A stretch of 64,000 bases of DNA, taken from NCBI GenBank assembly GCA_021292105.1, contig CM037871.1, positions 52,056,700 to 52,120,699 of the forward strand, given 5' to 3'. Positions 12,623 through 64,000 of this stretch are shown in pieces. Positions within the stretch are counted from its first letter, which is position 1; every line of letters begins with the position of its first letter. The notes below the pieces were generated by a model. The model was not told the DNA's origin, made no database searches, and worked only from the letters and a program-made list of their open reading frames with translations. The stretch is from Anadara kagoshimensis (taxonomy: Eukaryota > Mollusca > Bivalvia > Arcoida > Arcidae). The translations under genes were made by a program, and so were the position numbers.

Positions 12623-12725
12623 TGTCATGTGCTTGAATTTCTATTAAAATAATGCATTCAAAAACATTGTCATGTGCTGTTTTTGAATGCATTTTTTAAT
12701 AGAAATTCAAAAACAGCACATGACA
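12623..12725. mobile_element. Family C foldback element with 4-bp target-site duplication
   Basis: Palindrome starting tgtcatgtgc and ending gcacatgaca, flanked on both sides by ggag. The termini match the 74-bp element at 46799-46872, so it is a mobile family. Confidence 0.8.
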
Positions 12726-42199: not shown

Positions 42200-44852
42200 G
42201 CAATGCTAGAAGATGCAATGCTACATGCAGGGAAGATCCAATGCCAGAATCATGGGAGATGTCGTTCCAATGGCAGAATCGTGAGATATATCGTTCTAAT
42301 GTCAGAATCATGGGAGATATCGTTACAATGTCAGAATCATGGGAGATATCGTTACAATGTCAGAATCATGGGAGATATCGTTCCAATGCCAGAATCATGG
42401 GCGATTTCGTTCCAATGTCAGAATCATGGGAGATATCGTTCCAATGTCAGAATGATGGGAGATATCGTTCCAATGTCAGAATCATGGGAGATGATATCGT
42501 TCCAATGTCAGAATCATGCAAGTGACGTTCCAATACCAGAATCATGGGCGATTTCGTTCCAATGTCAGAATCATGGGAGATATCGTTCCAATGTCAGAAT
42601 CATGGGAGATATCGTTACAATACCAGAATCATGGGAGATATCGTTCCAATGTCAGAATCATGGGAGATATCGTTCCAATGCCAGAATCATGGGAGATATC
42701 GTTCCAATGTCAGAATCATGGGAGATATCGTTACAATACCAGAATCACGGGAGATATCGTTCCAATGTCAGAATCATGGGAGATATCGTTCCAATGCCAG
42801 AATCATGGGCGATTTCGTTCCAATGTCAGAATCATGGGAGATATCGTTCCAATGTCAGAATGATGGGAGATATCGTTCCAATGTCAGAATCATGGGAGAT
42901 ATCGTTCCAATGTCAGAATCATGGGAGATATCGTTCCAATGCCAGAATCATGGGCGATTTCGTTCCAATGTCAGAATCATGGGAGATATCGTTACAATGT
43001 CAGAATCATGGGAGATATCGTTACAATGTCAGAATCATGGGAGATATCGTTACAATACCAGAATCACTGGCGATTTCGTTCCAATGTCAGAATCATGGGA
43101 GATATCGTTCCAATGTCAGAATCATGGGAGATATCGTTACAATGTCAGAATCATGGGAGATGATATCGTTACAATGCCAAAATCATGGGAGATATCGTTC
43201 CAATGTCAGAATCATTGGCGATTTCGTTACAATGTCAGAATCATGGGAGATATCGTTCCAATGTCAGAATCATGGGAGATATCGTTCCAATGTCAGAATG
43301 ATGGGAGATATCGTTCCAATGTCAGAATCATGGGAGATGATATCGTTACAATGTCAGAATCATGGGAGATATCGTTACAATGTCAGAATCATGGGAGATA
43401 TCGTTACAATGTCAGAATCATGGGAGATGATATCGTTACAATACCAGAATCATGGGAGATATCGTTACAATGTCAGAATCATGGGAGATATCGTTACAAT
43501 GTCAGAATCACGGGAGATGATATCGTTACAATGTCAGAATCACGGGAGATGATATCGTTACAATGCCAAAATCATGGGAGATATCGTTACAATACCAGAA
43601 TCATGGGAGATATCGTTCCAATGTCAGAATCATGGGAGATTTCGTTACAATGTCAGAATCATGGGAGATATCGTTCCAATACGAGAATTATGGGAGATGT
43701 CGTCCCAATGTCAGAATCATGGGAGATATCGTTACAATACCAGAATCATGGGAGATTTCGTTACAATGCCAGAATCATGGGAGATTTCGTTACAATGTCA
43801 GAATCATGGGAGATTTCGTTCCAATGTCAGAATCATGGGAGATATCGTTACAATACCAGAATCATGGGAGATTTCGTTACAATGTCAGAATCATGGGAGA
43901 TATCGTTCTAATGTCAGAATCATGGGAGATTTCGTTACAATGTCAGAATCATGGGAGATTTCGTTACAATGTCAGAATCATGGGAGATATCGTTACAATG
44001 TCAGAATCATGGGAGATATCGTTACAATGTCAGAATCATGCGAGATATCGTTCCAATACGAGAATTATGGGAGATGTCGTTGCAATGTCAGAATCATGGG
44101 AGATATCGTTACAATACCAGAATCATGGGAGATATCGTTACAATGCCAGAATCATGCGAGATATCGTTCCAATACGAGAATTATGGGAGATGTCGTTGCA
44201 ATGTCAGAATCATGGGAGATATCGTTCCAATACTAGAATCATGGGAGATATCGTTCCAATACCAGAATCATGGGAGATATCGTTACAATGCCAGAATCAT
44301 GCGAGATATCGTTCCAATACTAGAATTATGGGAGATATCGTTCCAATACTAGAATCATGGGAGATATCGTTGCAATGTCAGAATCATGGGAGATATCGTT
44401 CCAATACTAGAATTATGGGAGATATCGTTGCAATGTCAGAATCATGCGAGATATCGTTCTAATACGAGAATTATGGGAGATGTCGTCCGAATGCCAGAAT
44501 CATGGGAGATATCGTTGCAATGTCAGAATCATGGGAGATATCGTTCCAATACGAGAATTATGGGAGATGTCGTCCCAATGCCAGAATTATGGGAGATGTC
44601 GTCCCAATGCCAGAATCATGGGAGATATCGTTGCAATGCCAGAATCATGGGAGATATCGTCCCAATACCAGAATCATGGGAGATATCGTTACAATGCCAG
44701 AATCATGGGAGATATCGTCCCAATACCAGAATCATGGGAGATATCGTTACAATACCAGAATCATGGGAGATATCGTTACAATGCCAGAATCATGGGAGAT
44801 ATCGTTACAATGCAAGAGGCATGGAAGACATCGTTCCAATGCTAGAAGCATG
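42200..44852. repeat. 29-bp tandem array, about 90 copies
   Basis: Unit cagaatcatgggagatatcg plus ttccaatgt. There are no spacers, so it is not CRISPR-like. Because 29 is not a multiple of three and no frame of the unit has a stop, all three plus frames stay open, giving spurious frames of up to 455 codons. Variants (acaatgt, ccaatac, atttcg, an extra atg as in agatgatatcg) cluster regionally. The left edge decays into degenerate units at 42200-42290. Confidence 0.97.
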
Positions 44853-44930: not shown

Positions 44931-45379
44931 TGACATATGAAATTATGAATACAAATAACACTTCTCGAGTAAAATTTCGGCGAATACTCTTCAAAAAAAA
45001 TTACTTGGGTTCTGAAAAACAACCAGTACAAATTAGTAGTACAAAAGATGTATAAATGTACCAATCAGAATGATAGAACAAAAATATACACCATAAATAA
45101 AGCTTCTTACAATGTCTATATCACCGTATGTTTTGTTAAAAGATAAAATAACCTTCCGAACGTTGTAAACTTTAAATGTAATTATATATCATCCACTTAA
45201 AGCCAGATAACTTTTATCTTTATACTTATAGTAACATCAATAACACAACATAAAGGTAAATCTTAAAACGAAGGTTAATCTACTACCTCACTTATAAATC
45301 AAGTACGCAGTAAATGTCTGGTTGTATTGTAATATTGTGGATTGTCTAATATGATCTCTGATGATCTGGTTATCCGTCA

Positions 45380-45530
45380 ATCAAAAACAAAAATACCAAT
45401 GCATGTCTTATTCAAAATCCCAAACCAAAGTAAAAACCTTGAAAATTAAGTAAACCAGGGAAGTGAGGCCGGGTGCTCCAGATGGGTAAGCGCTTCCTGC
45501 TTAGCCAGCTACACCCGCCGCGTGTGATGA
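45380..45530 (-). repeat. Retroelement tail fragment, minus orientation
   Basis: gaagtgaggccgggtgctcc and ggtaagcgcttcctgcttag, inverse of the 61760-61810 tail. Confidence 0.7.
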
Positions 45531-46640: not shown

Positions 46641-46795
46641 GAAGAAAACATTGAAGACAGTGGTCACAAAAGCCGACATTCTCGTAGTAATAAACAGGAT
46701 GGCTGGAGAACGTGGGGTCAGTGGTCAGCGTGTAATGCAGAGTGTGGGACTGGTGTAGCTGTTAGAATACGTAATTGTGACCATGATACTGACAG
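46641..46795 (+). CDS. Papilin-like exon 1 of window: leader and first half of TSP1-1
   Basis: Acceptor ttattttcag; encodes EENIEDSGHKSRHSRSNKQD, then GWRTWGQWSACNAECGTG with the WxxW and CxxxCGxG signature. Ends in phase 2 at ACAG|GTATGT, a donor partly contributed by an inserted foldback element (46799-46872). Confidence 0.88.
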
Positions 46796-48756
46796 GTATG
46801 TCATGTGCTACTTTTGAATTTTTATGAAATAATATAATTCAAAGTAGCACAATTCAGAAGTAGCACATGACAGGTAAAACAAAACAAAATGTCCGACAAC
46901 TTAGACTGGAATCATGCTATTCAAATAGATCTACCCGGCTAAAGCGATTGAGTGGGACTTTTGTAAAATAGATTTAGGTTAATTGAGAATGTGTTTCTCT
47001 AACCAGCACAAACAATTATGAATGACCAAGCCTCCATACTGGCTAAGGATGGCTGCTTCACCATACAGAACACGTATACAAGTGATTCTTTTACCATGAA
47101 AGTTTCCAAAAGTTTCAATTTAAAATGATTGATGTAAAGATTGCGGAACTTCGCTCGTCCTTGTGTTAATCGTGCGATTTTTTTTTATTGTTTGTTAATT
47201 TTATATAACGCATGTAAAACTTCAAATACAGTATTTAAATGCTAAGTTGTCTCCAAATTTTAAATGTCAGAGTTTCGGCCTTTAAAAGTCAAATATCAGC
47301 TTTTAATGCGCGAGTTGTTAGTCTTATAATAAATACACGTGTATTGTTGTTTTAGGTCCCAATATGAGATGTGCAGAGGAAAGAAAAAAGAATTCAGAAT
47401 ATGTAATACACAGGTATAATGAATGTAATACACAGGTATAGTGATTGTAATACACAGGTATAATGACTGTAATACACAGGTATAATGAATGTAATACACA
47501 GGTATAATGAATGTAATACACATGTACAATGATTCTAATACACAGGTATAATGATTGTAATACACAGGTATAATGATTGTAATACACAGGTATAATGAAT
47601 GTAATACACAGGTATAATGAATGTAATACACAGGTATAATGAATGTAATACACAGGTATAATGATTGTAATACACAGGTATAATGATTGTAATACACAGG
47701 TATAATGATTGTAATATAATACACAGGTATAATGAATGAAATACACAGGTATAGTGATTGTAATACACAGGTATAATGAATGTAATACACAGGTATAATG
47801 AATGTAATACACAGGTATAATGATTGTAATACACAGGTATAATGATTGTAATACACAGGTATAATGAATGTAATACACAGGTATAATGAATGTAATACAC
47901 AGGTATAATGATTGTAATACACAGGTATAATGATTGTAATACACAGGTATAATGAATGTAATACACAGGTATAATGATTGTAATACACAGGTATAATGAA
48001 TGTAATACACAGGTATAATGAATGTAATACACAGGTATAATGATTCTAATACACAGGTATAATGATTGTAATACACAGGTATAATGAATGTAATACACAG
48101 GTATAATGAATGTAATACACAGGTATAATGATTGTAATACACAGGTATAATGAATGTAATACACAGGTATAATGAATGTAATACACAGGTATAATGAATG
48201 TAATACACAGGTATAATGATTGTATAATGCAGTTTGATTCTTGAGAACACACAGGACATGGGTAATAAAGTAGCGGTATTATTTATATCTCAAAGCTACG
48301 TACAATAACCTTGTAAGAGCACCTGCCTTGTTATCCATTTCATTACAATATTTTAAGTCTGCCTTCATTATCGATATCATGTCATCATGATGTCTTAATT
48401 AAAAAATAAGAATGTTTTAGTTTGTTTCCCAAAAAGTGGAAATAAAACGATAAGCAACATGAAAATGTAACTTACTATCGTTATGGCAACTTTCCTAATT
48501 CCGTTAAGTAGATTGTCCAATCTATTGTTTACTGGTTGTTAAGGAAGTCATTGTTTTCACTAACATATTCCATTCTACACACTCTATCTGTACTACATAA
48601 CTAGTAGTCATATTTTCACACATTTTTGTTTTATATTTTCTTTGAAGAAATGTACAAGGGGACAAAAAACCTTACGAGCCACATTATGTTCGGCACATGA
48701 TAATGATGACATGGGTCGTGGTAAAAGATATAGGTGGATTCCATACCTACTACGTG

Positions 48757-48793
<37 letters not shown>

Positions 48794-49491
48794 TAAATAC
48801 CCATTGTTTGGAATGATGGTTTACTGCGCAGCACACTAAACACTTTTTTGTAATTTGTTAAGTAAAGGTACCGGTATCGTTTTGATGAATAGTTTTGTTG
48901 AATTACATGATGACTAAAAGCTAGAGGTAAATTCGTATAAAATTGACAGAGAATAAACATGATAAAATGGGAATGCCTGGTGTTGAAAATTGACGGTTAA
49001 ATTCGAGTCCATATAGTAAAAAACATTTAAAATTACTACACAAATGTATATTGCAACGTGTTTATTGTCTTGTTTGTGTTTGAAACTTCAGTGTTGGCGA
49101 TTTTTCAAACTTGAAAATAAAACATCATATTTTATGTTATTTATATAAAAAATTCGGTTAAGTTTTGCTAAAAAAACCTTTTTGGGTTTGATTTTGCAAA
49201 TGAAATTCCACAACAATGTAAGCTTTCTATTTTTTGTTATAAAAATGTACTTCCATATGTTACGGTAATACAATGCAATGATGATAGTAATAAAACAAAT
49301 GAATGAAGCATTAAAGAATGAGAACTGTATAGTAATTGGGGTTTTTATTTAGATTCAAACAGGTGCGAGTTGATATGTCGAGCAGCTGGTAGGGGATTTT
49401 ACAACAGTTTTCCAGAGGCAGTAACTAATGGTTCTTTATGTAATCAGAAAGGTACAGCAGTTTGTATAGACGGAGTTTGTAAAGTAAGTAC

Positions 49492-49555
<64 letters not shown>

Positions 49556-49625
49556 ACCAATTGTTCTTTATGTAATCACAAAGGTACAGCAGTTTGTATA
49601 GACGGAGTTTGTAAAGTAAGTACAC

Positions 49626-49667
<42 letters not shown>

Positions 49668-49733
49668 ACCAATGGTTCTTTATGTAATCACAAAGGTAAA
49701 GCAGTTTGTATAGACAGAGTTTGTAAAGTAAGT

Positions 49734-49768
<35 letters not shown>

Positions 49769-49851
49769 AGAGAGAGAGAGCGAGTTACCAATGGTTCTTT
49801 ATGTAATCACAAAGGTACAGCAGTTTGTATAGACGGAGTTTGTAAAGTAAG

Positions 49852-49884
<33 letters not shown>

Positions 49885-49954
49885 TAACCAGTTGTTCTTT
49901 ATGTAATCACAAAGGTACTGCAGTTTGTATAGACGGAGTTTGTAAAGTAAGTAT

Positions 49955-49994
<40 letters not shown>

Positions 49995-50059
49995 ACCAAT
50001 GGTTCTTTATGTAATCACAAAGGTACAGCAGTTTGTATAGATGGAGTTTGTAAAGTAAG

Positions 50060-50098
<39 letters not shown>

Positions 50099-50163
50099 AC
50101 CAGTTGTTCTTTATGTAATCACAAAGGTACAGCAGTTTGTATAGACGGAGTTTGTAAAGTAAG

Positions 50164-50214
<51 letters not shown>

Positions 50215-50279
50215 ACCAGTTGTTCTTTATGTAATCACAAAGGTACAGCAGTTTGTATAGACGGAGTTTGTAAAGTAAG

Positions 50280-50334
<55 letters not shown>

Positions 50335-50403
50335 ACCAGTTGTTCTTTATGTAATCACAAAGGTACAGCAGTTTGTATAGACGGAGTTTGTAAAGTAAGT
50401 ACT

Positions 50404-50457
<54 letters not shown>

Positions 50458-50522
50458 ACCAGTTGTTCTTTATGTAATCACAAAGGTACAGCAGTTTGTA
50501 TAGACGGAGTTTGTAAAGTAAG

Positions 50523-50567
<45 letters not shown>

Positions 50568-50636
50568 ACCAATTGTTCTTTATGTAATCACAAAGGTACA
50601 GCAGTTTGTATAGACGGAGTTTGTAAAGTAAGTACT

Positions 50637-50693
<57 letters not shown>

Positions 50694-50761
50694 ACCAGTT
50701 GTTCTTTATGTAATCACAAAGGTACAGCAGTTTGTATAGATGGAGTTTGTAAAGTAAGTAC

Positions 50762-50801
<40 letters not shown>

Positions 50802-50869
50802 ACCAATTGTTCTTTATGTAATCACAAAGGTACAGCAGTTTGTATAGACGAAGTTTGTAAAGTAAGTAC

Positions 50870-50921
<52 letters not shown>

Positions 50922-50988
50922 TAACCAATTGTTCTTTATGTAATCACAAAGGTACAGCAGTTTGTATAGATGGAGTTTGTAAAGTAAG

Positions 50989-51043
<55 letters not shown>

Positions 51044-51113
51044 ACCAATTGTTCTTTATGTAATCACAAAGGTACAGCAGTTTGTATAGACGAAGTTTGT
51101 AAAGTAAGTACCC

Positions 51114-51151
<38 letters not shown>

Positions 51152-54100
51152 TAACCAATTGTTCTTTATGTAATCACAAAGGTACAGCAGTTTGTATAGA
51201 GGAGTTTGTAAAGTAAATACTCGGAGAGAGAGAGAGAGAGAGAGAGAGAGTACGAACTTTTAGAGTTACTTACAGTTGCATACCCAAACATGAATTGATT
51301 TAATAATGAAAAGATTTTATTTGTATATTACATTACTCATATATATATAAATATCCATGTAATGTAATGTAATGTAATGTAATGTAATGTAATGTAATGG
51401 AAAGCTTTCAAATCACCACAATTCTGACTGTCTCTGGTTTTATCAAAATGTTATTGTAGTCCGTTTTCTTTAAATGGGGTACATTAATCAGTTGCACTTT
51501 GTAATTAGTTTTAAATGGACCCTGTACATTAGGCTCCATAGCCTCTAGCATTACAACAAGATTCTATAGTATGCAGTGGTTCCCAACTAGAAATATCCCA
51601 TAAGATTACCAGTGACATACAAGTAGCGACCATAACCGGGGTTAATAGGGTCAAAACTTACACAATGTACCTGGATACATCTAATAGTTGCATAGTACTG
51701 ACTTCAAAGTTCCCGACAGTATTTGAATCTCTACTTTCTGTACTTATTTTACAGAAATTTGGTTGCGACAATGTTGTGGGATCACATGCTGTCAAAGATC
51801 AGTGTGGTGTTTGTGGTGGTGACGGTACCGGCTGTCGGCTTATTAAAGAAAGATACGAGGACAGACGACCAAACTATGGCTACAGTACCATTGGTGTCAT
51901 CCCTGCTGATCTACTTTAATAAATAAACAGGACGAAGAACGAGAAACTTTTTAGGTATATAATGTAGTTGCTGAAATAATTAAAAAAAAATGTTTCTTTT
52001 TTCCTACGACAATATAAATATATAGATGAACTTTGTCCCTTCCTTTTATGGAATTGATACCTTTCTTCCTTATAATTGTGTGAATTGCAGCTACATTAAA
52101 CTATGCATGTAAAGTGCACTCGGCCACCGGAACACCAAATTATGTTGGCATAACAAAAATATTTAAATTGACTAATGAAATAATGATATTGTTATGAACA
52201 AAAAACTTTTAAATACTGAATCAAGAATACAACCATTCATTAAGATTATTTCATTAATCAATAAGTTAGACCAACGGAGCTACAACCGACCAATAACATA
52301 ACTACAGTTTGTAATTGTAATATTTTGAGCATTCCAGACACTGGATATAGTGTTTGAAATAAAGGTACTAATACATTTCAAAATCGCATGTTTCAGCTTT
52401 AAAAATCCGAGATGGTGCTTACATTATTAATGGTAATAGGCGTCTATCTCCAGAAGGCGAACACCGAGGAGCGGGCACTGTGTTTCAATACCACAGAAGG
52501 AAGAAATCAAAGTGTAATGCCGCTGAATGTATATTTTCTACAGGTCCAATAAATGTTGATATTGAGCTAATGGTAAGGATATATTGTGGATGTATAGTAG
52601 CATTTTTGAAGCACACCAGGCCCGTCTACTACTCAATGATTTTTTCATTATACTGCTGTGAAAATACAAATGTATATGTAAACGTTCCCCCAAACTGGTC
52701 TGAAGTTTCAATCTACATAAGAAGGATGCAACAACATTGCTTCCTCTTCAGTAAAATTATGTTATTATATAGCAATATATGTTTCACATAGAAATTAAAG
52801 GATAAATCCCGAGGTGTTAGCGTGCAATATATATCGATATTTGCACGCAAACTTTGTTGAAATCCGATGTTTCCCGAATCAATTTTTCATATTGCACACT
52901 TTGTCACATGACGCTGTCATTTATGACGTCATACGATTGTTGTTACATGGCTGACGATGTCATGATTTTGTTGTTGTCGTATTACACTAGTTCTTATATC
53001 CGTATACAAGAACTAGTGCAATATTTATGTATTGTAAGGAAAAATGGTATTTTGAGAAGAAATACTAGTGGGAAACAATTGAAATTTATTTTGCTATATA
53101 ATAAAAAGGGTTATTGAACTGATATTGTGAAATATTGTCATTTGTTGACTAGATATTTGAACTCGCAAGCTCGTGCAAATATCGAGTCAACTCGGGACAA
53201 TATTTCACAATATCAGTTCAATAACCCTATAATATTACTAAAATAACAAAATTGGCAACTGAAAAGCATGTGGTTAGCAATTGTCAAAAGATCGAGTAAC
53301 ACAGCATAAAAGTAATTGAATATAAGACCAGCAATTGAATTATAAAAGTTTCAGTAACATTATTTGCATGTGCATCAAAAGTACATCTTAGAAAATTCTT
53401 AAATTACATGTGCCATAGTTCGGGGGACTTAGTAAAATGCTTTAATTCATCTGCATGTTCCAGCCATTCGTGACTAGATCTTTTCTTATTGACCATAAGG
53501 ATTAATCTAAACACATGTTCATATATCTCTGTTCTGATTTATATTATTGTTCACTTTGTATCATCTTTAGATATCTGTTTCACTTGGTCCTAATATCACA
53601 GATTGAACATTGCATACTATTGGTTTATTCAACTTCGACGAATATCAGTTGGTGCCTACAAGCAAAAATATCTTTCTCAACGTGTTCGTCCAGTGTCGAA
53701 TCTGAACCCACAACAATGACTTGAGTGAAAGCCAATGCGATCCCTAACGTTGTTGGACATCGGACAATTGTATACCTATAAACTTATCGACACGATTGTA
53801 GGAAAACTGATAGAAGCTTATGGTTTTACTTACGTTTTCATGGGGGCATCCATTGATTGGCTCTCATCCTTTCCAAATTTTATTTAGTTGAAATCACTAC
53901 TTTTTGCAAAGCCTTGAATCATACCCTTAATTAAAGATAAAGTGAAAAGTCTATCTTATCGTTTCAGGATTAATCAATTTATTATTATTTTTTCTAATTT
54001 ATTCCAGTTATTAGCATTTGGTGTAAATGGCGGAGTGTCATTTTCTTATGCTGTTTCCGGCATCAGTCCTGCATCGAGAACTTAACAGGACAACAACATC

Positions 54101-57100
54101 GACATCGGGTGTGGTAAAGCCACCTGTAGTCGACAGTCGTGTCGACGCTACAACAGTAATAAACAATAATGAAACGGACTATAACAACACTGACGACGTC
54201 ATTCGAGTAAATGAAGTAATTACTTTACCAAATGACATTCCCACTGTTGACAGTAACAGCGAGAAAGGGATCACAGTAGCAACTACGATTTTGCAAGATT
54301 CAAATAACGCCATATATAATGTGACGACATTAAGGAATGTGGAAAATATAAGACCAACGGAACAACGATTCCGACAGATGTTTCTGGACAAACGTCATCC
54401 AAATCTGTAAGAAGAAATGGAAGGAGAATGCCAAAATATACACAAAGTTTTAAATTCATGAGCAAAATGCGTAGAAAAGATCGCCGGCACAACAACAAAT
54501 TGGACAGATCTCAAAACGATAAACGTTACAAAAATGGCAGATACCCGCCAATAATTGTGGAAGATCACTTCAAAGGACATGATGCGGATGCAACCGGAAG
54601 ACAGCCTGCTCGCACGAGAGGAGGCGTTGTTATACAGGTTGACAGGGATGAAGGCGTTATGATAACCGGAAATGAAAGAGACGGAATACGTCAGTATAGA
54701 TACGTGGTGACGGGATACACAGACTGTAGCACAACATGTGGACCAGGTCTGTAAATGAATTCACGGGGTATAGTGGGTAGGTTTGTTTACAGGGGCCATT
54801 TTCAGCTGTTACAGACTTGAAATGAACATGTAATTAATAAGTCTCTAGTATGAATTTCAATACTGTATTTTGTAGACTGATATCACTTAAGAAAAAAAAT
54901 TGACTGAGGTCCACAAAAACTTTTTTTAATTGCTTATTTAGCAAGCTGTTTAAGGCACAAAGACTGGAATTAATTTAATTATTAACGTTATTTTTAATAA
55001 TATCAATCAGAGGAAGCATCCTATGGACATGCTTTCAGCCTTCAAGGACAAGGCTTCTCCATCGACAAACACATTGTATCCCTGCTTTTAAAACAAACGC
55101 AATTATAACTATATAAGAAATAAGCTTCTATGACTTTTTCTGATCAACAATTTTACAGATATGCAATACTGAACAACAAACATTGCAAAGATATAAGAGG
55201 ATATTGCAGTGATTGATCACAAACCAATGAGCGATTAGTTTGACGTAGTTGATGTATTTATTATACCCCCTTGCAAACTAGTTTCAAGGGGGTATAGGAA
55301 TCACCATGTCTGTCTGTCTGTCTGTCTGCGTAAAATCTTGTCCGGGCCATATCCAATAACTGCTGTGGAGGACTGTCATAAAAACTTCACACGAATAATC
55401 TTCATGGTACTTAGTTTTTTCATGACCTCAAAACTAAGATCATGTCGGAAAGGTCAAGGTCGCATGAAAACATTAAATGTTGGGGCAGGGTTTATTGGGC
55501 TCTCACGAAACAGTTCTAGTTTATTTTTGTTTTATCGCATATTGAAGTTAAACATGCTTAAAGCCCAGTGTTGTATCTCTTACTAAAAAAAAGTCCATAA
55601 CTTGAATAATGGACTTTTGCTCACACACAAGTATTCAGTTTTACAGAATGTTTCATCTTTGGTAACAGGGTGAATGAAGACTATAAGATACTTTCAGGTA
55701 GACGTCAACCTAAAATACAGTGTATGGGGAACGGAAGATATGTTGATGAACGATACTGCCGATCTATGTCGAGACCATATACACAGACGATCGAGTGTAA
55801 CAACCAGCCGTGTGACTCCGAATCCAGGTAACCGACATAAGCAGCTCTGTTTGTGACCTTTTTTTAAACAGTTGCTTTTAATTTTTTCAACTATTTGCAA
55901 TTAAGCTACAAACTACCATTATTTTACCACAAATTTGATTTGTCTATCAGCCTGTACTGTATTATTACACTTTTATGAAATACATGAAAGAATATTTTTC
56001 GATAATTGTTTTACCTTATCAACAAATTCATTATCTCTGTCCATAGATCAACTGATTCTAGTTGTTTAGTTCTTCTGTTGAATGCTTATACACGGGCTTA
56101 TATGATTTCAGAGATCCCGAATTCCAATGCTTTGCTGGTTTATGTCGTAATATTGACGGCTAAAATATTTTTTGAGGGATGTGCAACGGTTTGGTTAAAC
56201 CATGAATGAGACGAAATACTTCTTATCAGTAATAATATTGATGTAGTTTGTTATTCAAAAGTCGAAATTCATTGCAAATATGATTTATTTGACGAATAGT
56301 TGCAATGAAACAAAAAACTCTTGGTTACCATTATGTAAGATGGGAATACATTTTGGCATCTAATTAATCCGTACTGTATATTACATGTTAACATATAGGT
56401 GGGAAGCCGGTGCTTGGTCTAGCTGCAGTGTGACATGTGGTGAAGGGTTTGAAACACGGAAGGTAGATTGTGTGCAGGAAGTTTCTCCCAATGCATTCGT
56501 ATCAGCTGATGATTGTGAACAAGCTAGTGAACCATCAAACACTCGTTCATGTCAACGTCAGAACTGCAGTAGCTGGGAAGTCGGGCCTTGGAGTCAGGTA
56601 TTACTATGTTTGGAGTCAGTTACTAATTTTACAGTGGATCCACTGGAGTGGAGTAATGGCGCTTACACCCGGGACTTTCACATGTATCTAGGCAAGAGCA
56701 GAGGTACCCAAAGAAAACCATTGACCTACGGCAATCAAATTGACAAACTTACTAAGATCTGTCATGAATGAGATTTGAATTTACGCGTCTGGGGTACTGT
56801 GATCAGTTAACGAGTGCTTTACTGATTGGCTCGATACCAAAATAATGATCTTGCACACTCGCGCACCACATAAACATGTTTTGCCTAGTAAAATATCAAG
56901 TCCTAAAAAGTTGTAATGTTGCTGATACGACCAAAAACAGCATTCAGTCAACCAAACTACCTTCCATAATACTGGAGATAGTAAGCTTTGAGTTATATAG
57001 TTGTATATAAAGACTCGAAACATTATTGATTGCTGACGACTCAACTATAGTTTATACCTATGCAATATAAATGTTTATTTACGTTTTGGTAGTGTTCTGT

Positions 57101-60100
57101 CACCTGTGGACCAGGTATCAAAAGGAGACAAGTCACATGTACAAGAAACGTCAACAGTATCGACAGTAACTGTGATCCACAGCAAAGACCACAAGAAGAA
57201 GAGGAATGCTACCCTGGACCATGTTCATCCAACTCAATAAGCAGGTGGTACGTCAAAGAATGGCCGACTGAAGTTAGTATTTAGGCATTTAGATTACTTT
57301 GTGGTTTTAGTATCAATGGTTGAGGGTCCCAGTTTTACAATTATAGTCAAATATTGATAAATTATACGTTTCTTCTCCAATGACAGTGTAATGTAACATG
57401 TGGTCCAGGAATGCAGTCACTTGATGTAGCATGTATCCATAGAAGACGGAGTGGAAGTTATCATGTGGTGTCTGTCGCTAACTGTAACTCTGATGAAAAC
57501 CCTGAAACACATATGTCTTGATTTTTTTTTAAGTTGATCTTCAAAATGACACCTTAAATTCTCAGATATCTATAAGATTTACAAAAATATTGATATTCCA
57601 TCTGACATTATATTAGTTAAGAAAAGTGTTAGTTAAGAAATAATGTGAAACTGGGGCCAGTATAGAAAAAAGTCACCTGAATTTTGAGTTTGTTGTTAAC
57701 ATATATTTCAATAAAATGATCTGTTGATGGTGTAATACGATAAGAGTCAGGAAGTTCATACATATCAGCGTATTCGTCTTTTAGAATAGGAAAAAAGGAA
57801 TCGACATTCCGCTGGTCTTTTTCGTCAAATGCAAATCCTAAAACGCTTAATTTGTTTTCGATTATTTAATCGAAATTTCTACTTAGAAAACTGAAACCTA
57901 ATAATATGCTTATTATATTTACTTTGCAATAGATTACTATTACATATAAAATGCATATAAAATGAAAACAAGAATAAAAGTTAAAGAAAGATGGGTCAAC
58001 ATTTGCTGTTGGGTCTGTAACTATAATTGCTGTTTATTGTTGGAATAAGCAGATTTTGTCACTCTGTTGATTATTATATAATCCATAATACTTATACGGA
58101 CAAATAAGGGTACATTTTGTATATAATAATCGACACTTTTGTTAATAGATTATTATTTTTCAGTGTCCTGTTGAATGCGGAACGGGTACACAGACACGTG
58201 TAGCACTTTGTCTCGGCGAGGACATGGGCTTGAGTTCAAGTTGTTCTCCAGTGGATAAACCACAGACAGAACGTAGTTGTAACTCTAATACTCGGTGTAG
58301 AGGCTTCTGGTTTACAGGACCATGGGGGAAGGTTAGTATACACAGAAGTCTATGAATACTAAAACTCTATATACCGCATTTACTTTCAAGGGCGTCTGTT
58401 AAGGTATTCCCTTTTAACTGGATCCTCAAGCTAAATGTAGGTTTAGTCATGTCATAGATGTGACATGCACTGCCGAACCTTGTAAAGGGACCGCTAAAAG
58501 AATGTCAAAAATATAATTTGCAAAACAGTTCTAGTATTAAAACAATGCAGAGTATCTATCAAATTACTGTAAAATGCAATTAAAAAACAATCTATAAATA
58601 AATATCGTAAAATCTAGTTTTATTTTACACAATATAAGAACCTTTTGATCTTACCATAGTCTTACAGTTTTCAGTAGCAGACGTATTATGTACGTACTGA
58701 TGGGCGACACTGTTGTTGATTTTAATAGCTTTCAATAAATAAATAAATATCTCGGTAAAAATATTTTTAAAAAAATGTTCCACATTTTGGCCAACATTAT
58801 TAATTGTAGTGCTGTCCATCAAACATTTTTCAGAACTTTTATTATTAAATATTGATTGGTCATTTGTTTTCTTCTCCAATGACAGTGTAATGCAACATGT
58901 GGCCCAGGAATGCAGTCACGTGATGTAGCATGTATACATAGAAGACGGAGTGGAAGTTATCATGTGGTTTCTGTCGCCAACTGTAACTCTGATGAAAAAC
59001 CTGAAACACATATGTCTTGTCTTATAGAAGAGTGTAGTCCTCAGTGGTTCATCTCGGAGTGGAGTCAGGTAATGATGCTAGAGTAGATGTTAAACTCGTT
59101 AAGTCAGTTGTCTTGTTCCTATACAAACTGTTGGCCCGTAGGGTTTGTGTTGAGCTGAAAATAGAAAAAGGAAATTTTCCATAAAAAAGTAAATAATGTT
59201 CCTATCATATGGTAAAGAAATGAATAACATTGAATGCTGAATATAAGTGGAATAAAGTTTAGTTCACATAATTCTATATACCATCATGGGGAAACAATGT
59301 CTAAAATATGTGATATTGCTTTACCAACATTTTAACCAGCCGGACCATTCTGTGTTATCTATGAAAGTCAGACTTTTGGATAAAAATATACAACCAAAGA
59401 AATAGTCATACATTAAGCACTACATACTGATTACAACTGGGAAATTACTGGATAAGAGAACTAAGCACTGCTTCGCCATATGGATGCAATGACAAAATTG
59501 TAAGCGTAGGAAATCTTTCGAGCCCTGGTTGTAACAATGTAAATGTTTTACACTTGTTCAACAAAACTACACGTGACAATAGAAGTCATGGACATCGGCG
59601 TTACAACAAACCAATATCCATGATGTTAGTTTTCTTAATCTTTTACCATTCCTGCAGAAACCTCTCGGATTACACCATATCCGAACTAAACTCTACTCTA
59701 TACCACTATCCCGTCTTAGACAGTTACAAGAAGAATGCATATCTAAAACTACTATAGATTCTAATACACCAGAATATAAGCTTACTGCTATCATCATGGA
59801 TATTGTTTTTAACAGATTATTTAAACCTGCTCCGAGGAAACGATATTGAGAACAATGGGCAACGCCAATATCTTAAGTAACTCTATGCTAACAAAGGCAT
59901 AGATGCTATACACATTTCCAATATTCTTCAAAATAAACAAGTACAATCTAAAGTTCCTGCTTATTTCAAAATTTATTCGCCACCTCTAGTTTCCTACTCC
60001 CACAATAAACCTATTGCATCCAAAATATTTAATTATAAACAAACATTGCAGTGTTTGAACTTTCATAATTTTACTCCACCTACCTGCTCTTGCTCGTCTT

Positions 60101-63100
60101 CTCCCTATATTTATGGACCAGCTTGACATGTGATAACTGGTGATCTCAATATAATCGAGAACACTAAATTAAGATCTTTACTTTCAAAAGGTCCTAAATA
60201 TAGAGAAGCTCAATCTTTTACTTGGGGACAGAATTTCAGACTTGTCATGGTTTCTGTTGAAGAGTACGCCAGACGTTGGGCTAAATTAGAAGATGTTGAG
60301 CTTGATACCTTATCCGACCGGATAAAGATTATGAGATCTTTCGTTAAAACTAGGATTGCCAAACTTAAAGGGTCTATGAGTACTACACCGTCTTCAGTAC
60401 TCAAGGATCCAGAAATCAAGGCAATACAAATATGTTGTTGCCCCAGCTGATAAGGCTTCGAACAACATTATTCTCGTTTGTAAGAGATTCTACCTTGAAT
60501 GTCTTATTAAGGAGCTTGGTTTAGATAGTATATCAAATAACCTGCATATACTAGAACTAATTTTACCAAAGATGAAGTTCTTTCCAACCATAGGGGAGTT
60601 CTCGAGTCTTTCGGTATCAATCTTAAAGAGGAAGATCTTGATCTTCCTTACTTGTATTGGATTCCTTAACTCCATAAAAATCCATACAAGGAAAAATATA
60701 TTACAGGCTCATCTAAATGTACTACTAAATCATTATCGGTAACTCTAACACAAATTATTCTTATTCAGAAAAAGTATATTGTACATTTGGAATCAACCAA
60801 ATGTGGATTCTCAAAAATTCTAAAGATTTACTTGAACATTTTGCTTCTAATATAAAAACATTTGATTTTTCAACACTATACACCACTATCCCTCATTCTA
60901 AATTGAAAGAACGTCTTAAAGTAATTATTCACTTGTCTTTCTTTTACAAAAACGGTAAGCCAAGATACAAATATCTGGTGCTGAACAGGGATTCTGGTTA
61001 TTTTGTCAAGCACCATACGGATTCCAAACAAAAATATACTGAAGATACCATCAAAAAAATGTTGGAGCTTTTGATAGATAACATATTTGTTGTGTTTGGT
61101 TATATAGTTTTTCAGCAAACAATCGGTATACTAATGGGTACAAACTGTGCACCATTGCTTGCTGATTTGTTTCTTTATTCTTATGAAGCATAATTTATGC
61201 AGAACCTTGTTAAATCTGGAGAGAAAACTGTCGCCAAATCATTCAACTCAACATACTGATATATAGATGACGTTCTGTCTCTTAACAATCCTAAATTTGG
61301 AGACTATGTAAATGGCATCTATCCTAGTGAGCTTTAGATAAAAGACATGACTGATTCCTCAAGTTCTGCTTCATATTTAGAATTATACCTGAATTATGAC
61401 GCACACGAAAGGCTACATTTGAAACTTTATGACTTCAATTTTTCTATTGTCAACTTTCCTTTTTTATGCAGCAATATACCTGCTTCTCCTGCTTATGGTG
61501 TATTTGTTTCCCAATTAATACGCTATGGTAGAGCTTGTTCCCACTACGGGGACTTTGTACAACGAAGTAGGCTGCTTGCAAATAAATTGTTGACTCAGGG
61601 ATATTGCAAGCCTAGGCTTATCAAGTTTTATGGCCGTCATCACAGTATTGTTGATAAGTTTGATGTCTCTGTCTCCAGGATTGCCCTGGATATATTTGAC
61701 ATCTCATAGTTCCATTTCCTTTCACACAATTTTGATTACACACGTGGCGGGTGTAGCTAGCTAAACAGGAGGTGCTTACCCTTCCGGAGCACTCGGCCTT
61801 ACTTCCCTGGTGGAAGTTCACGTGTCTAACCTAACTTGTCAGTTCCAAAGTTTTTACTTTGCTTCTGGATTGTGATTCGGACATGGATTAGTATGTTTGT
61901 TTTTGATTTGCAATACCATTATTCTGTATAGCACGGTGCATAACTTTTGGTTGATTTTTTTCTGAAGGTATGTTTAGGCTTGGCTTCTACTTTCAAACTT
62001 TTATGTGGTATTATTTCGAAACTTCTTTGCTTCCATGGTTTTGTAATCAGAACAAATGTATATAACATTTAATTTATATTGCTTGAATAGTGTGTATTAA
62101 TGACATTCAAATCGGTTTATTTCAAATTATACATGCACAACCTTTTTAAGTTATCCTCAACCAGCTATATTGTCGTTTGACAACTGTAACATGACCTTTG
62201 TGCTCAAACACGGTAAATGTTCACACTTTATAGTTATAGGCATTCTGATAGTCATTTGTGTTGGTTCTAATGATATTATCTCCACTCGCCGACATCACTT
62301 TCATGGAGTTGCTATATAGGTCAAATCCTAAATTTACCTTAACAATCCCGAATTTGGAGACTATGTGAATGCCATCTATCCTAGTGAGCTTGAAATAAAA
62401 GATACGACGGATTCCTCAAGTTCTGGTTGCTTCATGTTTAGACTGGTATCTCAATTATGACGCCCACAAAAGGCTACATTTGAAACTTTATGAAGAACGT
62501 GATGACTTCAATTTTTCTATTGTCAATTTTCCTTTTCTATGCAGCAATATACCTGCTTTTCCTGCCTATGGTGTATTTGTTTCCCAATTATTGCGCTATG
62601 GTAAAGCTTGTTCCCACTACGGGGACTTTGTTCAACGATGCAAACTACTTGCAAATAAATTGTTGATATTGCAAGCCCAGGCTTATCAAGGCCCTAAAAG
62701 TTTTAGGGCCGTCATCACAGTATTGTTGATAGTTTTGATGTCTCTGTGCCCAGGATTGATATATTTGACTTCCCATAGTTGAATGTTCCTTTCACACAAT
62801 TTTGATCACACACGTGGCGAGTGTAGCTAGCTAAACAGGAGGTGATTACCCTTTCGGAGCACCTGGTCTCACTTCCCTGGTGAAAGTTCACGTGTCTAAC
62901 CTAACTTGTCAGTTCCAATGTTATATACTTTGATTCTGGATTGTGATTCGGACATGGATTAATATGTTTGTTTTTTATTAAATCATATTATAAGACATAA
63001 ATTAGGCCACTTTACTGTTACTCTACTGTTCCCTTTATAATTGCAGTATCCACGACAATGTTCTAAGACATAAATTTATCTACTTTGTTACTCTATTTTT

Positions 63101-64000
63101 CCATTTATTATTGCAGTGTCCACGACAATTTTCTAAGACATAAATTAGGCCATTTTGTTATTCTATTTTTCCATTTATAATTGCAGTGTCCACAACAATG
63201 TGGAGCCGGTGACCAAACAAGAGACATTAAATGTTTAGATTCAAAATATCGACCTAGTGCAGCGTGTCACCAAGACATAAAACCAGTTGCTAGGCAACGA
63301 TGTGATTCATCACAATGTCTTCCCACAACTACACCAGGTATGTATATGATCAGGGTTCGTACCCAGGTCAGATCTGACCAAAACTTGAAACTTTGTATCA
63401 TTCGATGGACAATTTTCCCTCCGGGTGCTTTTGACGTTCGTGGAGATGTTTGCATTTCTCGCACGTGTTTCGTTAAAAGTTAACCAATACCAATTTGCTA
63501 GACACTTTCATTTAGAGTACTAATATTTTTTAAGAATCGTAGAGAAATAATCATATGACCTTCTTGCATTTGCATTTATCATTGAAAATAATTAGGGGAG
63601 ATACTTATTATATGCACTTCTATAACATAAAGTTACCTAACTATCCAACAAATTATACAACATGCTTACCTATATTACGACAATTCTGTGAATATAACTT
63701 TCTCTTGTTTCTAATATGGTGCTAACAGTGAAGTAAAGTATCTAATGATAAATTGTATAAAATTGTTAACCAAGTCGTTGAAACCTGTTTCCGTTCAAAA
63801 TTGCCATTTGCTACTAAATTCTGAGGAATTCAAAAAGTAACATATTTTTGCAAATTTGTGAAAATACTTTAAATACACATTTTTGTATTTTAAGAAATTT
63901 GGCTACTAGTGATTTTAAAGTTTTTGAAACTATATAAACTAAATTCACTTTCATTTATCATATGAACTTATTTTTTTCAGAAGTAGCAGACAAGGATTGT
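46641..64000 (+). CDS. Papilin/ADAMTS-like secreted matrix glycoprotein (partial gene, 14 exons)
   Basis: Exons: 46641-46795, 47356-47413, 48648-48753, 49353-49483, 51755-51954, 52397-52572, 54008-54746, 55647-55827 (start uncertain), 56399-56597, 57093-57272, 58164-58331, 58886-59068, 63187-63337 and 63981 onward. Order of parts: basic leader, TSP1 (WRTWGQWSACNAECGTG), cysteine-rich module ending DQCGVCGGDGTGC, spacer (YIINGNRRLSPEGEH...), polar linker, then six TSP1 repeats (CSxTCGxG or CxxxCGxG cores). This order is that of papilin, ADAMTSL and the ancillary half of ADAMTS. No protease or disintegrin part is visible and the stretch before the first TSP1 is a short polar leader, which favours papilin/ADAMTSL, secreted to the extracellular matrix. 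The signal peptide exon is not found, and the C-terminus is beyond the window. Exons 5 and 7 have frame breaks, so function is uncertain. Confidence 0.8.
46799..46872. mobile_element. Family C foldback element inside a splice donor
   Basis: Starts tgtcatgtgctactt, ends gtagcacatgaca, flanked by ggta on both sides (46795-46798 and 46873-46876). Same termini as 12623-12725. The insertion falls three bases into the intron. Confidence 0.85.
47356..47413 (+). CDS. Papilin-like exon 2
   Basis: 58 nt, phase 2 in and phase 0 out. Acceptor ttgttttag; encodes SQYEMCRGKKKEFRICNTQ, completing TSP1-1. Its donor ACACAG|GTATAATG is the first unit of the 22-bp array that follows. Confidence 0.8.
47401..48224. 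repeat. 22-bp tandem array of an exon end plus splice donor, about 37 copies
   Basis: Unit gtaatacacaggtataatga plus at/tt. The first unit is the last 13 bases of exon 2 and the first bases of its intron. Spacing between the first two donors is exactly 22 (47413 and 47435). Units differ mainly at gaat/gatt. The minus-strand frames of up to 311 codons are repeat artefacts. Confidence 0.95.
48225..48647. other. Intron 2, remainder
   Basis: AT-rich; no feature recognised. Confidence 0.6.
48648..48753 (+). CDS. Papilin-like exon 3
   Basis: Acceptor ttctttgaag; encodes KCTRGQKTLRATLCSAHDND and ends RYRWIPYLL in phase 1 at C|GTGAGT. It corresponds to the start of the ADAMTS cysteine-rich module (xxRxxxCSxxD...W.P). 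Confidence 0.8.
48757..49352. other. Intron 3 with (TC)n at its start
   Basis: (TC)n at 48757-48790 directly after the donor; nothing else recognised. Confidence 0.6.
49353..49483 (+). CDS. Papilin-like exon 4: cysteine-rich module
   Basis: 131 nt, phase 1 in and phase 0 out. Encodes SNRCELICRAAGRGFYNSFP and ends GTAVCIDGVCK, the ADAMTS/papilin CxLxCxAxGxxF...DGTxC...VC..G.C pattern. Donor AAA|GTAAGTA is the first of 16 copies. Confidence 0.88.
49420..51250. repeat. Exon-end/donor/(AG)n compound array, 16 copies
   Basis: Each unit contains gttctttatgtaatcacaaa, ggtacagcagtttgtataga and gtttgtaaagtaagta, then (AG)n of variable length (about 20-60 bp). The exon-derived part is nearly unchanged from copy to copy, while the AG tract varies. 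All but the last copy keep GTAAGT (the last has gtaaat). The long minus-strand frames (LSLSLS...) are repeat artefacts. Confidence 0.95.
51251..51754. other. Intron 4, remainder, with (TAATG)n
   Basis: Pentanucleotide microsatellite at 51357-51399; otherwise nothing recognised. Confidence 0.7.
51755..51954 (+). CDS. Papilin-like exon 5: end of cysteine-rich module and start of spacer, frame-broken
   Basis: Acceptor tattttacag; encodes KFGCDNVVGSHAVKDQCGVC with the diagnostic CGVCGGDGTGC, then the spacer start NYGYSTIGVIPA. The frame stops at TAA 51917-51919, yet the exon's last bases (AAC TTT TTA G, then GTATAT) join perfectly in another frame to exon 6 as NFLALKIRDG, the expected spacer motif. 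A middle stretch (INKQDEER) is in the third frame. Two single-base losses, near 51908 and 51943, would explain this. Confidence 0.75.
51955..52396. other. Intron 5
   Basis: AT-rich; nothing recognised. Confidence 0.6.
52397..52572 (+). CDS. Papilin-like exon 6: spacer
   Basis: Acceptor catgtttcag, phase 1 in, phase 0 out at ATG|GTAAGG. Encodes LKIRDGAYIINGNRRLSPEG and onward to STGPINVDIELM, matching the ADAMTS-type spacer (YxxNGxxxLS...G..F.Y.R...E...GP....++L). A lysine/cysteine-containing loop (RRKKSKCNAAEC) is unusual in the middle. Confidence 0.85.
52790..53230. mobile_element. Nested foldback sequences in intron 6
   Basis: Three palindromes in a row: gcgtgcaatat/atatttgcacgc (52819-52852), cactagttctt/aagaactagtg (52985-53020) and a long one with arms ggttattgaactgatattgt and acaatatcagttcaataacc (53108-53225). 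This looks like one composite foldback element or nested insertions. Confidence 0.65.
53231..54007. other. Intron 6, remainder
   Basis: Nothing recognised apart from a good acceptor (tttattccag) at its end. Confidence 0.6.
54008..54746 (+). CDS. Papilin-like exon 7: spacer end, long linker, start of TSP1-2; two frame changes
   Basis: Begins LLAFGVNGGVSFSYAVSGIS in the frame set by exon 6 and hits TAA at 54083-54085. An acidic, T/N-rich linker (TTVINNNETDYNNTDD...) is open one base over until 54410. The original frame resumes after 54319, carries a basic linker (MPKYTQSFKFMSKMRRKDRR) and ends GYTDCSTTCGPG at G|GTCTGT. Both linker compositions look coding. A compensating pair of indels (first between 54027 and 54082, second between 54320 and 54407) would explain the pattern. 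Confidence 0.7.
54747..55259. other. Intron 7, left part
   Basis: Nothing recognised. Confidence 0.6.
55260..55610 (+). repeat. Molluscan dispersed repeat with terminal hairpin and (TCTG)n
   Basis: Opens with the small hairpin ataccccctt/aagggggtat, then (tgtc)n and cttgtccgggccatatcc. This start is shared by a repeat very common in bivalve and cephalopod genomes. The 82-codon frame across it is not a gene. Confidence 0.6.
55647..55827 (+). CDS. Papilin-like exon 8: rest of TSP1-2
   Basis: The certain part encodes YKILSGRRQPKIQCMGNGRY and ends QTIECNNQPCDSES, the C-terminal half of a TSP1 (RP...C...PC), with donor CCAG|GTAACC in phase 2. Acceptor choice is unclear. The one at 55646 (gttttacag) keeps phase and adds ECFIFGNR. 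The one at 55668 (ggtaacag) gives a more TSP1-like junction but is one base out of phase. Confidence 0.75.
55828..56398. other. Intron 8
   Basis: Nothing recognised. Confidence 0.6.
56399..56597 (+). CDS. Papilin-like exon 9: TSP1-3 and start of TSP1-4
   Basis: Phase 2 in, phase 0 out. Encodes WEAGAWSSCSVTCGEGFETR through SCQRQNC and then SSWEVGPWSQ. The WxxxxWSxCSxTCGxG core is intact and could carry C-mannosyl and O-fucosyl glycans. Donor CAG|GTATTA. Confidence 0.9.
56598..57092. other. Intron 9
   Basis: Nothing recognised. Confidence 0.6.
57093..57272 (+). CDS. Papilin-like exon 10: rest of TSP1-4 and start of TSP1-5
   Basis: 60 codons, phase 0 both ends. Encodes CSVTCGPGIKRRQVTCTRNV through ECYPGPC and ends WYVKEWPTE. 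Acceptor acgttttggtag, donor GAA|GTTAGT. Confidence 0.9.
57387..57520 (+). pseudogene. Truncated upstream copy of exon 12
   Basis: Includes the duplicated acceptor cttctccaatgacag and 44 codons (CNVTCGPGMQSLDVACIHRR...) that match exon 12 (58886 on) almost base for base. It breaks off after ATGTCTTG, so it lacks the last cysteines and a donor, and it reads into a TGA at 57519-57521. If spliced in, it would terminate the protein. Confidence 0.85.
57521..58163. other. Intron after the truncated exon copy
   Basis: AT-rich, nothing recognised. Confidence 0.6.
58164..58331 (+). CDS. Papilin-like exon 11: rest of TSP1-5 and start of TSP1-6
   Basis: 56 codons, phase 0 both ends. CPVECGTGTQTRVALCLGED through CNSNTRC, then FWFTGPWGK. 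Acceptor tatttttcag, donor AAG|GTTAGT. Confidence 0.9.
58332..58885. other. Intron 11
   Basis: AT-rich. Its last 15 bases are identical to those before the truncated copy at 57387. Confidence 0.6.
58886..59068 (+). CDS. Papilin-like exon 12: rest of TSP1-6 and start of TSP1-7
   Basis: 61 codons, phase 0 both ends. CNATCGPGMQSRDVACIHRR through CLIEEC, then WFISEWSQ. Complete and intact, unlike its upstream copy. Confidence 0.9.
59069..59539. other. Intron 12, left part
   Basis: Nothing recognised. Confidence 0.55.
59540..61910 (+). pseudogene. Degenerate reverse-transcriptase retroelement
   Basis: Sense-oriented insertion in intron 12 of the papilin-like gene. Broken frames together show: SKIFNYKQTLQ and a CSCSSSPYIYGPA stretch (59.9-60.1 kb), GPKYREAQSF and SVEEYARRWAKL (60.2-60.3 kb), the finger motif PADKASNNII (60.45 kb), RT motif A as KTFDFSTLYTTIPH (60.86 kb), motif B as MGTNCAPLLADLFLY (61.13 kb), motif C as YIDDVLSL (61.26 kb) and the C-terminal YGVFVSQLIRYGRACSHYGD (61.5 kb). 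It matches a non-LTR or Penelope-type RT family abundant in bivalves; I cannot place it further. Many stops and shifts make it non-functional. The 3' tail (61735-61910) carries gcttacccttccggagcac and ends ttgtgattcggacatggatt. Confidence 0.85.
62310..62980 (+). pseudogene. Second, 5'-truncated copy of the same retroelement
   Basis: Starts near RT motif C (FGDYVNAIYPSELEIKDT at about 62355), covers DDFNFSIVNFPFLCSNIPAF and YGVFVSQLLRYGKACSHYGD, and ends with the shared tail to about 62975. 5' truncation is typical of target-primed reverse transcription. It is about 350-400 bp beyond the first copy in the same orientation. Confidence 0.8.
62985..63203. repeat. 70-bp tandem repeat spanning a splice acceptor, about 3 copies
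   Basis: The phrase attgcagtgtccacgacaat (first copy attgcagtatcc...) ends in acceptors at 63046, 63116 and 63186, exactly 70 bp apart. Copies share taagacataaatt and the pyrimidine tract tctatttttccatttat. The last copy is the true start of exon 13. Confidence 0.92.
63187..63337 (+). CDS. Papilin-like exon 13: rest of TSP1-7
   Basis: Encodes CPQQCGAGDQTRDIKCLDSK through RQRCDSSQC and the linker LPTTTP, ending in phase 1 at G|GTATGT. Phase 0 in from exon 12 (WSQ|C). Confidence 0.9.
63338..63980. other. Intron 13
   Basis: AT-rich, nothing recognised. Confidence 0.6.
63981..64000 (+). CDS. Papilin-like exon 14, start only
   Basis: After a strong acceptor (tttttttcag) the phase-1 continuation reads EVADKDC. 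A new cysteine-bearing module (PLAC, Kunitz or another) would follow outside the window. Confidence 0.6.

Follow-up and report, generated by a model that had tools for sequence, protein, structure and literature searches.

Tandem arrays straddling the exon–intron boundaries of an ADAMTS-like gene in Anadara kagoshimensis

Tandem arrays that multiply the splice sites of a single gene raise the question of how the message of this gene can be kept intact when one exon faces several, or even several dozens, of near-equal donors or acceptors, and of whether the exon–intron boundaries have attracted such arrays or have simply tolerated them. The gene considered here has been traced on the forward strand, from E0 to E14 (38906-63337), within a stretch of DNA of 64,000 nucleotides from Anadara kagoshimensis, which is referred to as the window (G000:C15:52056700-52120699) and belongs to a genome of 1.115 Gb in 36 contigs. 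An earlier note on this DNA had described arrays at the E2 donor, at the end and donor of E4 and at the E14 acceptor, together with a truncated copy of E13, and all of them are present. The count of three arrays is thereby confirmed but more exist, since the E0 array (35196-38966) lies outside the range covered by that note and an E10 array occurs in a second copy of the gene.

The gene and its boundary arrays

The gene is ADAMTS-like, putatively of the ADAMTSL/papilin type, a label which rests on the TSP1 repeats, the ADAMTS cysteine-rich domain and the spacer 1 found in the traced E0-E14 part (Pfam matches TSP_1 3.5e-12, ADAMTS_CR_3 5.1e-8, ADAMTS_spacer1 2.3e-9 and TSP1_ADAMTS 2.1e-30). With respect to the naming, E0 is a new exon and E1-E10 are exons 1-10 of the earlier note; because E11 is a truncated copy of E13 and not an exon, E12, E13 and E14 match its exons 11, 12 and 13. 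Besides E0, the gene comprises, all on the forward strand, E1 (46641-46795, TSP1), E2 (47356-47413), E3 (48648-48753), E4 (49353-49483, ADAMTS cysteine-rich), E5 (51755-51954), E6 (52397-52572, ADAMTS spacer 1), E7 (54008-54746), E8 (55647-55827), E9 (56399-56597, TSP1), E10 (57093-57272, TSP1), E12 (58164-58331), E13 (58886-59068) and E14 (63187-63337), the domains of E1, E4, E6 and E9 being assigned by Pfam. The frame of E5 is broken and that of E7 is shifted in the window copy, both being open in the second gene copy, and the E7/E8 join is open with the acceptor at 55647. The truncated E13 copy (57341-57520, forward strand) consists of the acceptor and the first 134 nt of E13, a pseudo-exon devoid of any donor; it is 90.6% identical to 58839-59019 and also occurs in the second gene copy.

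At five exons, E0, E2, E4, E10 and E14, the repeated unit straddles the boundary, in that it includes the exon edge, the splice site and the intron edge; the arrays do not start exactly at the splice sites, as had been supposed. At E0, 45 copies of an 85/83-mer (forward strand, TRF) each contain a polypyrimidine tract, an AG and the 5' part of the exon. The E2 donor is straddled by 37 copies of a 22-mer (47401-48224, forward strand, TRF) made of 13 nt of exon and 9 nt of intron, with CAG/GT intact in 36 of the 37. The E4 array (about 49420/49421 to 51250, forward strand, TRF) consists of 16 units, each with the terminal 63 nt of E4, the donor and an (AG)n tract, spaced by 100-132 nt with a mean of 115. 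Three copies of a 70-mer (62991-63201, forward strand, TRF) straddle the E14 acceptor, each combining 53 intronic nt, which include the polypyrimidine tract and the AG, with about 15-17 nt of exon. Finally, the E10 acceptor is single in the window, whereas in the second gene copy a 68-mer array of four copies straddles it. Among the founding arrays of at least three copies within E0-E14, five out of six thus lie on a splice junction; the remaining one, a 29-mer array of 90 copies in intron 0 (42237-44852, TRF), touches no known splice site and reaches 141 copies in the second gene copy. Two weak two-copy TRF arrays (46836 and 55860) are both intronic.

The E0 and E14 units and the E2 exon end appear to be private to the gene. 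In the genome search the E0 unit was recovered at 45 + 4 places, solely in the window gene and in the second gene copy, and the E14 unit and the E2 exon end matched at the two gene copies only, so that a search for dispersal, as introners or transposon-borne splice sites would show it, found none of the three anywhere else.

The earlier note had also proposed a single shared cause, for example replication slippage at short repeats spanning the junctions. A clear trace of such slippage occurs at E4, where the exonic CAGAGGCAG/TAAC resembles (AG)n/TAAC, and none is clear at the other junctions; a single shared short-repeat mechanism is rejected, E4 being the only junction with a clear founding short repeat. 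The units, their lengths and the side of the exon that they occupy all differ from one array to another, and a further donor, that of E1, has been duplicated by another route, which represents a parallel case. It harbours a MITE-like element with the terminal inverted repeat TGTCATGTGC (46799-46872); through a 4-bp duplication, GGTA, the insertion has added a further donor at the right end of the element. Neither this right end nor the distal E1 donor exists in the other gene copy, where E1 is unchanged. Another member of the family, with the same terminal inverted repeat (12623-12725), is flanked by GGAG, a 4-bp target duplication.

Other repeats are found in and around the gene. The donor of E3 is followed, from position +6, by a (TC)16 tract (48759-48790) which is complementary to the (AG)n tracts following the E4 donors (49494-51250); the two kinds of tracts flank exon 4, and their pairing in the pre-mRNA could loop this exon out. 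Fragments located in intron 13 (59430-62980) and at 33364-34305 and 45379-45526 presumably derive, by their look, from a reverse transcriptase element of the Penelope-like type; those of intron 13 include two partial copies, 85% alike, and the E14 array begins directly after the second one. A 54-mer array (26234-28382) and a 52-mer array (18085-19537) look, by eye, as if they were derived from mobile elements, the 54-mer being similar to the Penelope-like fragments at their 3' end and the 52-mer sharing CTTTCGACAG with dispersed repeats.

The second gene copy and the predicted choice of the splice site

The second copy of the gene occurs on the minus strand of G000:C15:50060001-50110000, 2 Mb from the window copy, to which it is about 92-97% identical over long matches; it represents either a gene duplicate or an allele that escaped purging. 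Other near-identical gene pairs, some of them inverted, occur on the same contig in this assembly (C15 at 10.68/10.93, 38.9/39.2 and, for the present pair, 50.07/52.1 Mb; C11 at 36.5/37.2 Mb; C1 at 42.81/43.02 Mb; C18 at 4.08/4.23 Mb), and consist either of recent duplications or of unpurged alternative haplotypes. As a separate observation on the assembly, contig G000:C22 accounts for 15 of 19 ABC_tran matches, six of these 15 with internal TGA codons, and looks like a bacterial contig in which TGA is read as an amino acid (Mollicutes-like), from a symbiont or a contaminant.

All 14 exons of the second gene copy are bordered by AG and GT and, once joined, they give 901 open codons. The coding sequences of the two copies differ at 25 of 2,705 nt (0.9%), with 15 synonymous and 10 amino-acid-changing differences, as compared with 174 of 3,436 aligned sites (5.1%) over six introns, and the five array-bearing exons differ by four synonymous changes and none that alters an amino acid. 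Owing to the 901 open codons, to this gap between exons and introns, and to the unchanged amino acids of the array-bearing exons, the gene is real and conserved. Nine of the ten amino-acid-changing differences fall in E5 and E7, against six synonymous ones; with these two exons left out, nine synonymous differences and a single changing one remain over 1,761 nt. Taken together with the frame breaks, the excess of changing differences in E5 and E7 means that the window copy may be decaying, or may carry sequencing errors, at these exons.

The arrays themselves occur in both gene copies with different copy numbers, namely 45 in the window and 4 in the second copy at E0, 37 and 29 at E2, 16 and 4 at E4, 1 and 4 at E10, and 3 and 4 acceptors at E14 (3.0 and 3.4 copies by TRF). 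The same arrays recurring with other copy numbers are thus no artefact of local assembly.

The consequences of each possible splice site were followed through the reading frame of the joined exons. For the window copy, E2 joined to its neighbouring exons remains open from donor 1 of 37 only, donors 1 and 2 of the 16 of E4 keep the frame in joins running from E1 to the start of E5, and the last of the three E14 acceptors is the only one that leaves the E13-E14 join open. For the second gene copy, the frame is open only with donor 1 of 29 at E2 and donor 1 of 4 at E4, and E0, E10 and E14 are each open only with the last of four acceptors; the alternative acceptors of E0 were judged in this second copy, with its four sites. 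These frames lend good support to the prediction that the exon-proximal site, i.e., the first donor or the last acceptor, is the one used, the sole exception to the rule being donor 2 of E4 in the window. According to these results, a duplication that covers a junction would leave the message intact provided that the exon-proximal site is used. In this respect, the suggestion of the earlier note that the arrays are tolerated because position favours the first or the last site finds support, the amino acids being kept in spite of the changes in copy number, with the use of each site predicted from the frame.

The candidate exon E0 and its array

The E0 array ends at a candidate exon (38906-38978, forward strand) made of the terminal array copy and 12 unique bases followed by the donor GTAAGT. 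In nearly all units of the array, TTTTCAG precedes a 58-nt exon-like stretch. The E0 reading, LDVAVLTISWFSVVQYSFVQARQK, is open and ends in phase 0, the phase in which E1 begins, so that both exons join in phase. Judged by eye, the sequence of E0 resembles that of a signal peptide, V and A occupying positions -3 and -1.

Over the 45 copies, the exon part of the array read in the frame of E0 shows eight synonymous against two nonsynonymous variants (P=0.0004), and the variants shared by at least two copies are six synonymous and one nonsynonymous (P=0.0013). In the five other frames P ranges from 0.09 to 0.92, and for four other arrays, each read in six frames, no P falls below 0.2. The part of the unit preceding the AG contains one synonymous and four nonsynonymous variants. 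Between the window and the second gene copy, E0 differs by three synonymous changes and no other. The haplotype of the terminal copy at these three synonymous sites is CTT-GTG-TTA for the window, shared by 16 of its 45 copies (terminal copy included), and CTA-GTA-TTG for the second gene copy, which seven of the 45 window copies also carry. From this distribution, seen in one array and two gene copies, it seems that the expressed E0 copy has been swapped with internal copies of the array, and such an exchange would explain why internal copies look as if they were under selection. This exchange is the most original element of the case.

Other arrangements of E0 have been discarded. Its use as a first coding exon, starting from an ATG within the last array copy, conflicts with the unconstrained part before the AG (the one synonymous and four nonsynonymous variants mentioned above); the frame of the window copy does begin with an ATG there, but the terminal copy of the second gene has none. 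Micro-introns of 21-23 nt between successive E0 copies would leave pieces of 62 nt that break the frame. Introns of 21-23 nt are too short for animals.

The pattern does not extend to the other arrays. The E4 exon is identical in both gene copies and yet differs from the array copies; the variants of its array (four synonymous, six nonsynonymous) do not differ from neutral expectation, and no coding constraint was seen in the E4 and E2 units. The E4 array being unconstrained and its first copy unlike the rest, the exchange model would fit only E0. The intronic 29-mer array is free of stops over long stretches in each plus-strand frame, and the 84 copies that were tested show no constraint in any frame.

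Origin, precedents and placement of the arrays

The reading that we favour, with a probability of about 0.7, is that of ordinary tandem duplications, each covering one junction and invisible to splicing, which later expanded as minisatellites, with an exchange filtered by protein selection at E0. Each array would have begun as a short tandem duplication that by chance included a single splice junction. The original exon would thereby stay whole beside its own splice site, the extra copies ending up in the intron. With the exon-proximal site in use, the mRNA would be unchanged and the duplication would be as neutral as a purely intronic one, so that slippage or unequal exchange could lengthen or shorten the array, as in minisatellites. 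The terminal, expressed copy would take part in this exchange at E0, and selection on the protein would then leave mostly synonymous variants throughout the array.

The statement of the earlier note that no system of this kind had been described does not hold for the kind. The human CBS gene contains a 31-bp VNTR, c.1444_1467+7(16_21), of 16-21 copies, whose unit corresponds by its name to the last 24 nt of an exon and the first 7 nt of the following intron, as well as 844ins68, a 68-bp duplicate of the intron 7/exon 8 junction which is removed by splicing (PMC2630376), the choice of the splice site restoring a normal mRNA (PMC2630376, PMC1334203). The frame analysis agrees with such a restoration of the normal mRNA and would predict it for the present gene. 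As in the ADAMTS-like gene, the CBS unit spans an exon end and an intron start, and both CBS duplications occur in one gene; as presented in these sources, however, CBS has two junctions concerned whereas the ADAMTS-like gene has five, in addition to the donor duplicated by the MITE-like element, with up to 45 copies and, at E0, an array-wide synonymous pattern and an apparent swapping of the expressed copy. The outcome of splicing is described for CBS 844ins68, whereas that of the ADAMTS-like gene is predicted from the frame. A VNTR of the CBS type would be expected to vary in copy number between alleles or individuals; the copy number of the ADAMTS-like arrays differs between two gene copies of one assembly.

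Variable internal tandem repeats at exon–intron boundaries have also been reported, in PMC2812944, from human duplicated genes, with 27 intron modifications retained after manual inspection. These repeats alter transcripts or form introns, whereas the frame predicts an unchanged mRNA for the ADAMTS-like arrays. PMC4974935 deals with introns gained when a segment containing AGGT is duplicated in tandem, and cites fission yeast genes in which a 24-bp segment of this type is repeated several times in a row; the E2 unit likewise contains AG/GT. Unlike the products of AGGT duplication, the introns following E2 and E4 hold at least 400 nt of other sequence and appear to be pre-existing, no intron having been made. 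A role of the arrays as creators of new introns was set aside, owing to these long non-repeat parts and to the window E10, which has its intron already in the single-copy state. A search by titles and abstract openings, in a literature to which subscription papers are mostly external, gave no closer precedent among the matches listed. The arrays are thus ordinary in kind and unusual in scale, with CBS as a close precedent.

Whether tolerance is sufficient depends on the placement of the arrays, and two further readings, both possible but each more doubtful than the favoured one, bear on this point. The first is a mutational bias, according to which exon–intron junctions are hot spots of tandem duplication, due to composition steps, transcription-linked breaks or junction-spanning repeats, tolerance merely keeping the products. 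Under a null model in which the units take random positions in the gene, except wholly exonic ones, and in which the founding unit is assumed to be as long as the present one, three out of three arrays on a splice site have P = 0.0012, and at least three out of five, counting the two weak two-copy arrays, P = 0.0046. With E0 included, the probabilities are 2.4e-4 for at least four out of five and 6.2e-4 for at least four out of seven with the two weak arrays; with E10 of the second copy added, 2.7e-5 for at least five out of six and 8.3e-5 for at least five out of eight with the weak arrays; and, without E0, 1.6e-4 for four out of four. For at least four of the 20 TRF arrays with a period of at least 15 in the window as a whole, P is 6.8e-4. 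The placement thus exceeds a neutral random model and tolerance alone may not be enough, the figures from 6.8e-4 to 2.7e-5 speaking for the bias. However, all P values obtained for the gene are post hoc, the gene having been picked for its arrays and E0 recognised from the flank of its array, and the addition of eight imagined missed intronic arrays raises P to 0.0067.

The genome-wide scan for arrays on splice sites that the earlier note had recommended was carried out on a blind sample of 170 kb, which consists of 110 kb of paralogous regions and 60 kb around myosin/TSP1 exons chosen before the array search, and which omits the window flanks (L025, L026) and L001-L008, where TRF finds arrays in L003 and L006. 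Its 42 exons were counted by hand (16 in the 110 kb of paralogous regions and 26 in L027-L032), and its 15 arrays are those with a period of at least 15 that reach a TRF score of about 100, those below it being dropped. The sample contains three boundary arrays. A 36-mer of 19 copies runs across an exon donor on C3 (g3a, 34807-35505); from its translation, we take the exon to be ShKT-like. A 35-mer of ten copies in a paralogous gene on C4 (g4r, 18301-18650), next to an exon presumably reprolysin-like by reading of its translation, has its last AG as the exon acceptor; no other array stops precisely at such an AG. In an unrelated gene, an 80-mer of 1.9 copies (L027, 1913-2070) spans the acceptor of an exon of the myosin head. 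These three additional cases favour the bias, and arrays of this type are not confined to the ADAMTS-like gene. Among them, however, the myosin exon alone was located independently of its array, so that one of the 15 arrays falls on one of the 42 independently located exons where 0.38 are expected (P=0.31); counting all three overlaps, P is 0.022 if 65 exons are assumed and 0.063 if 100 are. Genome-wide enrichment is not proven.

The second reading, to which we give the same modest weight as to the bias, is a chance clustering in a minisatellite-rich genome, the gene having been noticed as an extreme case. It is consistent with the 20 TRF arrays of period at least 15 in the window alone, with the finding being one among many that a reader might have chosen, and with a blind sample that does not prove enrichment. 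Against it stand the fifth boundary array that the second gene copy added at a new exon, E10, and the three boundary arrays of the blind sample, of which one is in the unrelated myosin gene.

A more ambitious version, which we regard as rather improbable, would see genuine hot spots of amplification in the junctions of this genome; the exon caught in an array would become an interchangeable copy, unequal exchange rotating the expressed one and selection spreading over dozens of intronic copies, so that the array would act as a reservoir of tested exon variants. An assembly artefact or a pseudogene, whose boundaries would no longer be relevant, is very unlikely. The broken frames of E5 and E7, with their nine changing against six synonymous differences, and the many near-identical gene pairs of the assembly point in this direction, but for the gene as a whole this reading is largely contradicted by the 901 open codons of a second copy bearing the same arrays, and by the nine-to-one ratio of synonymous to changing differences over the 1,761 nt outside E5 and E7, set against 5.1% in the introns. 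A function of the arrays, the extra donors holding U1 snRNP on the pre-mRNA or buffering the loss of a splice site, is hardly credible, for although the predicted pairing with the 5' end of U1 is kept in 36 of the 37 E2 and 15 of the 16 E4 copies, young homogeneous arrays would look conserved anyway, the E4 and E2 units are unconstrained, and the second gene copy manages with four copies at E0 and E4 and the same amino-acid sequence for these exons.

To return to tolerance, the predicted use of the exon-proximal site explains why the arrays are tolerated, and junctions may or may not attract them. If arrays turned out to be enriched at junctions genome-wide, this would suggest that exon edges are subject to a mutational bias, of which no description was found. 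In practice, dozens of perfect donors or acceptors around one real exon are likely to mislead annotation and variant calling. They also make the gene a natural test case for the part that position plays in the choice among identical splice sites, with 37 near-equal donors on the one hand, and four or 45 near-equal acceptors on the other hand. Finally, E0 suggests a route, open to testing, by which intronic repeats may come under coding constraint.
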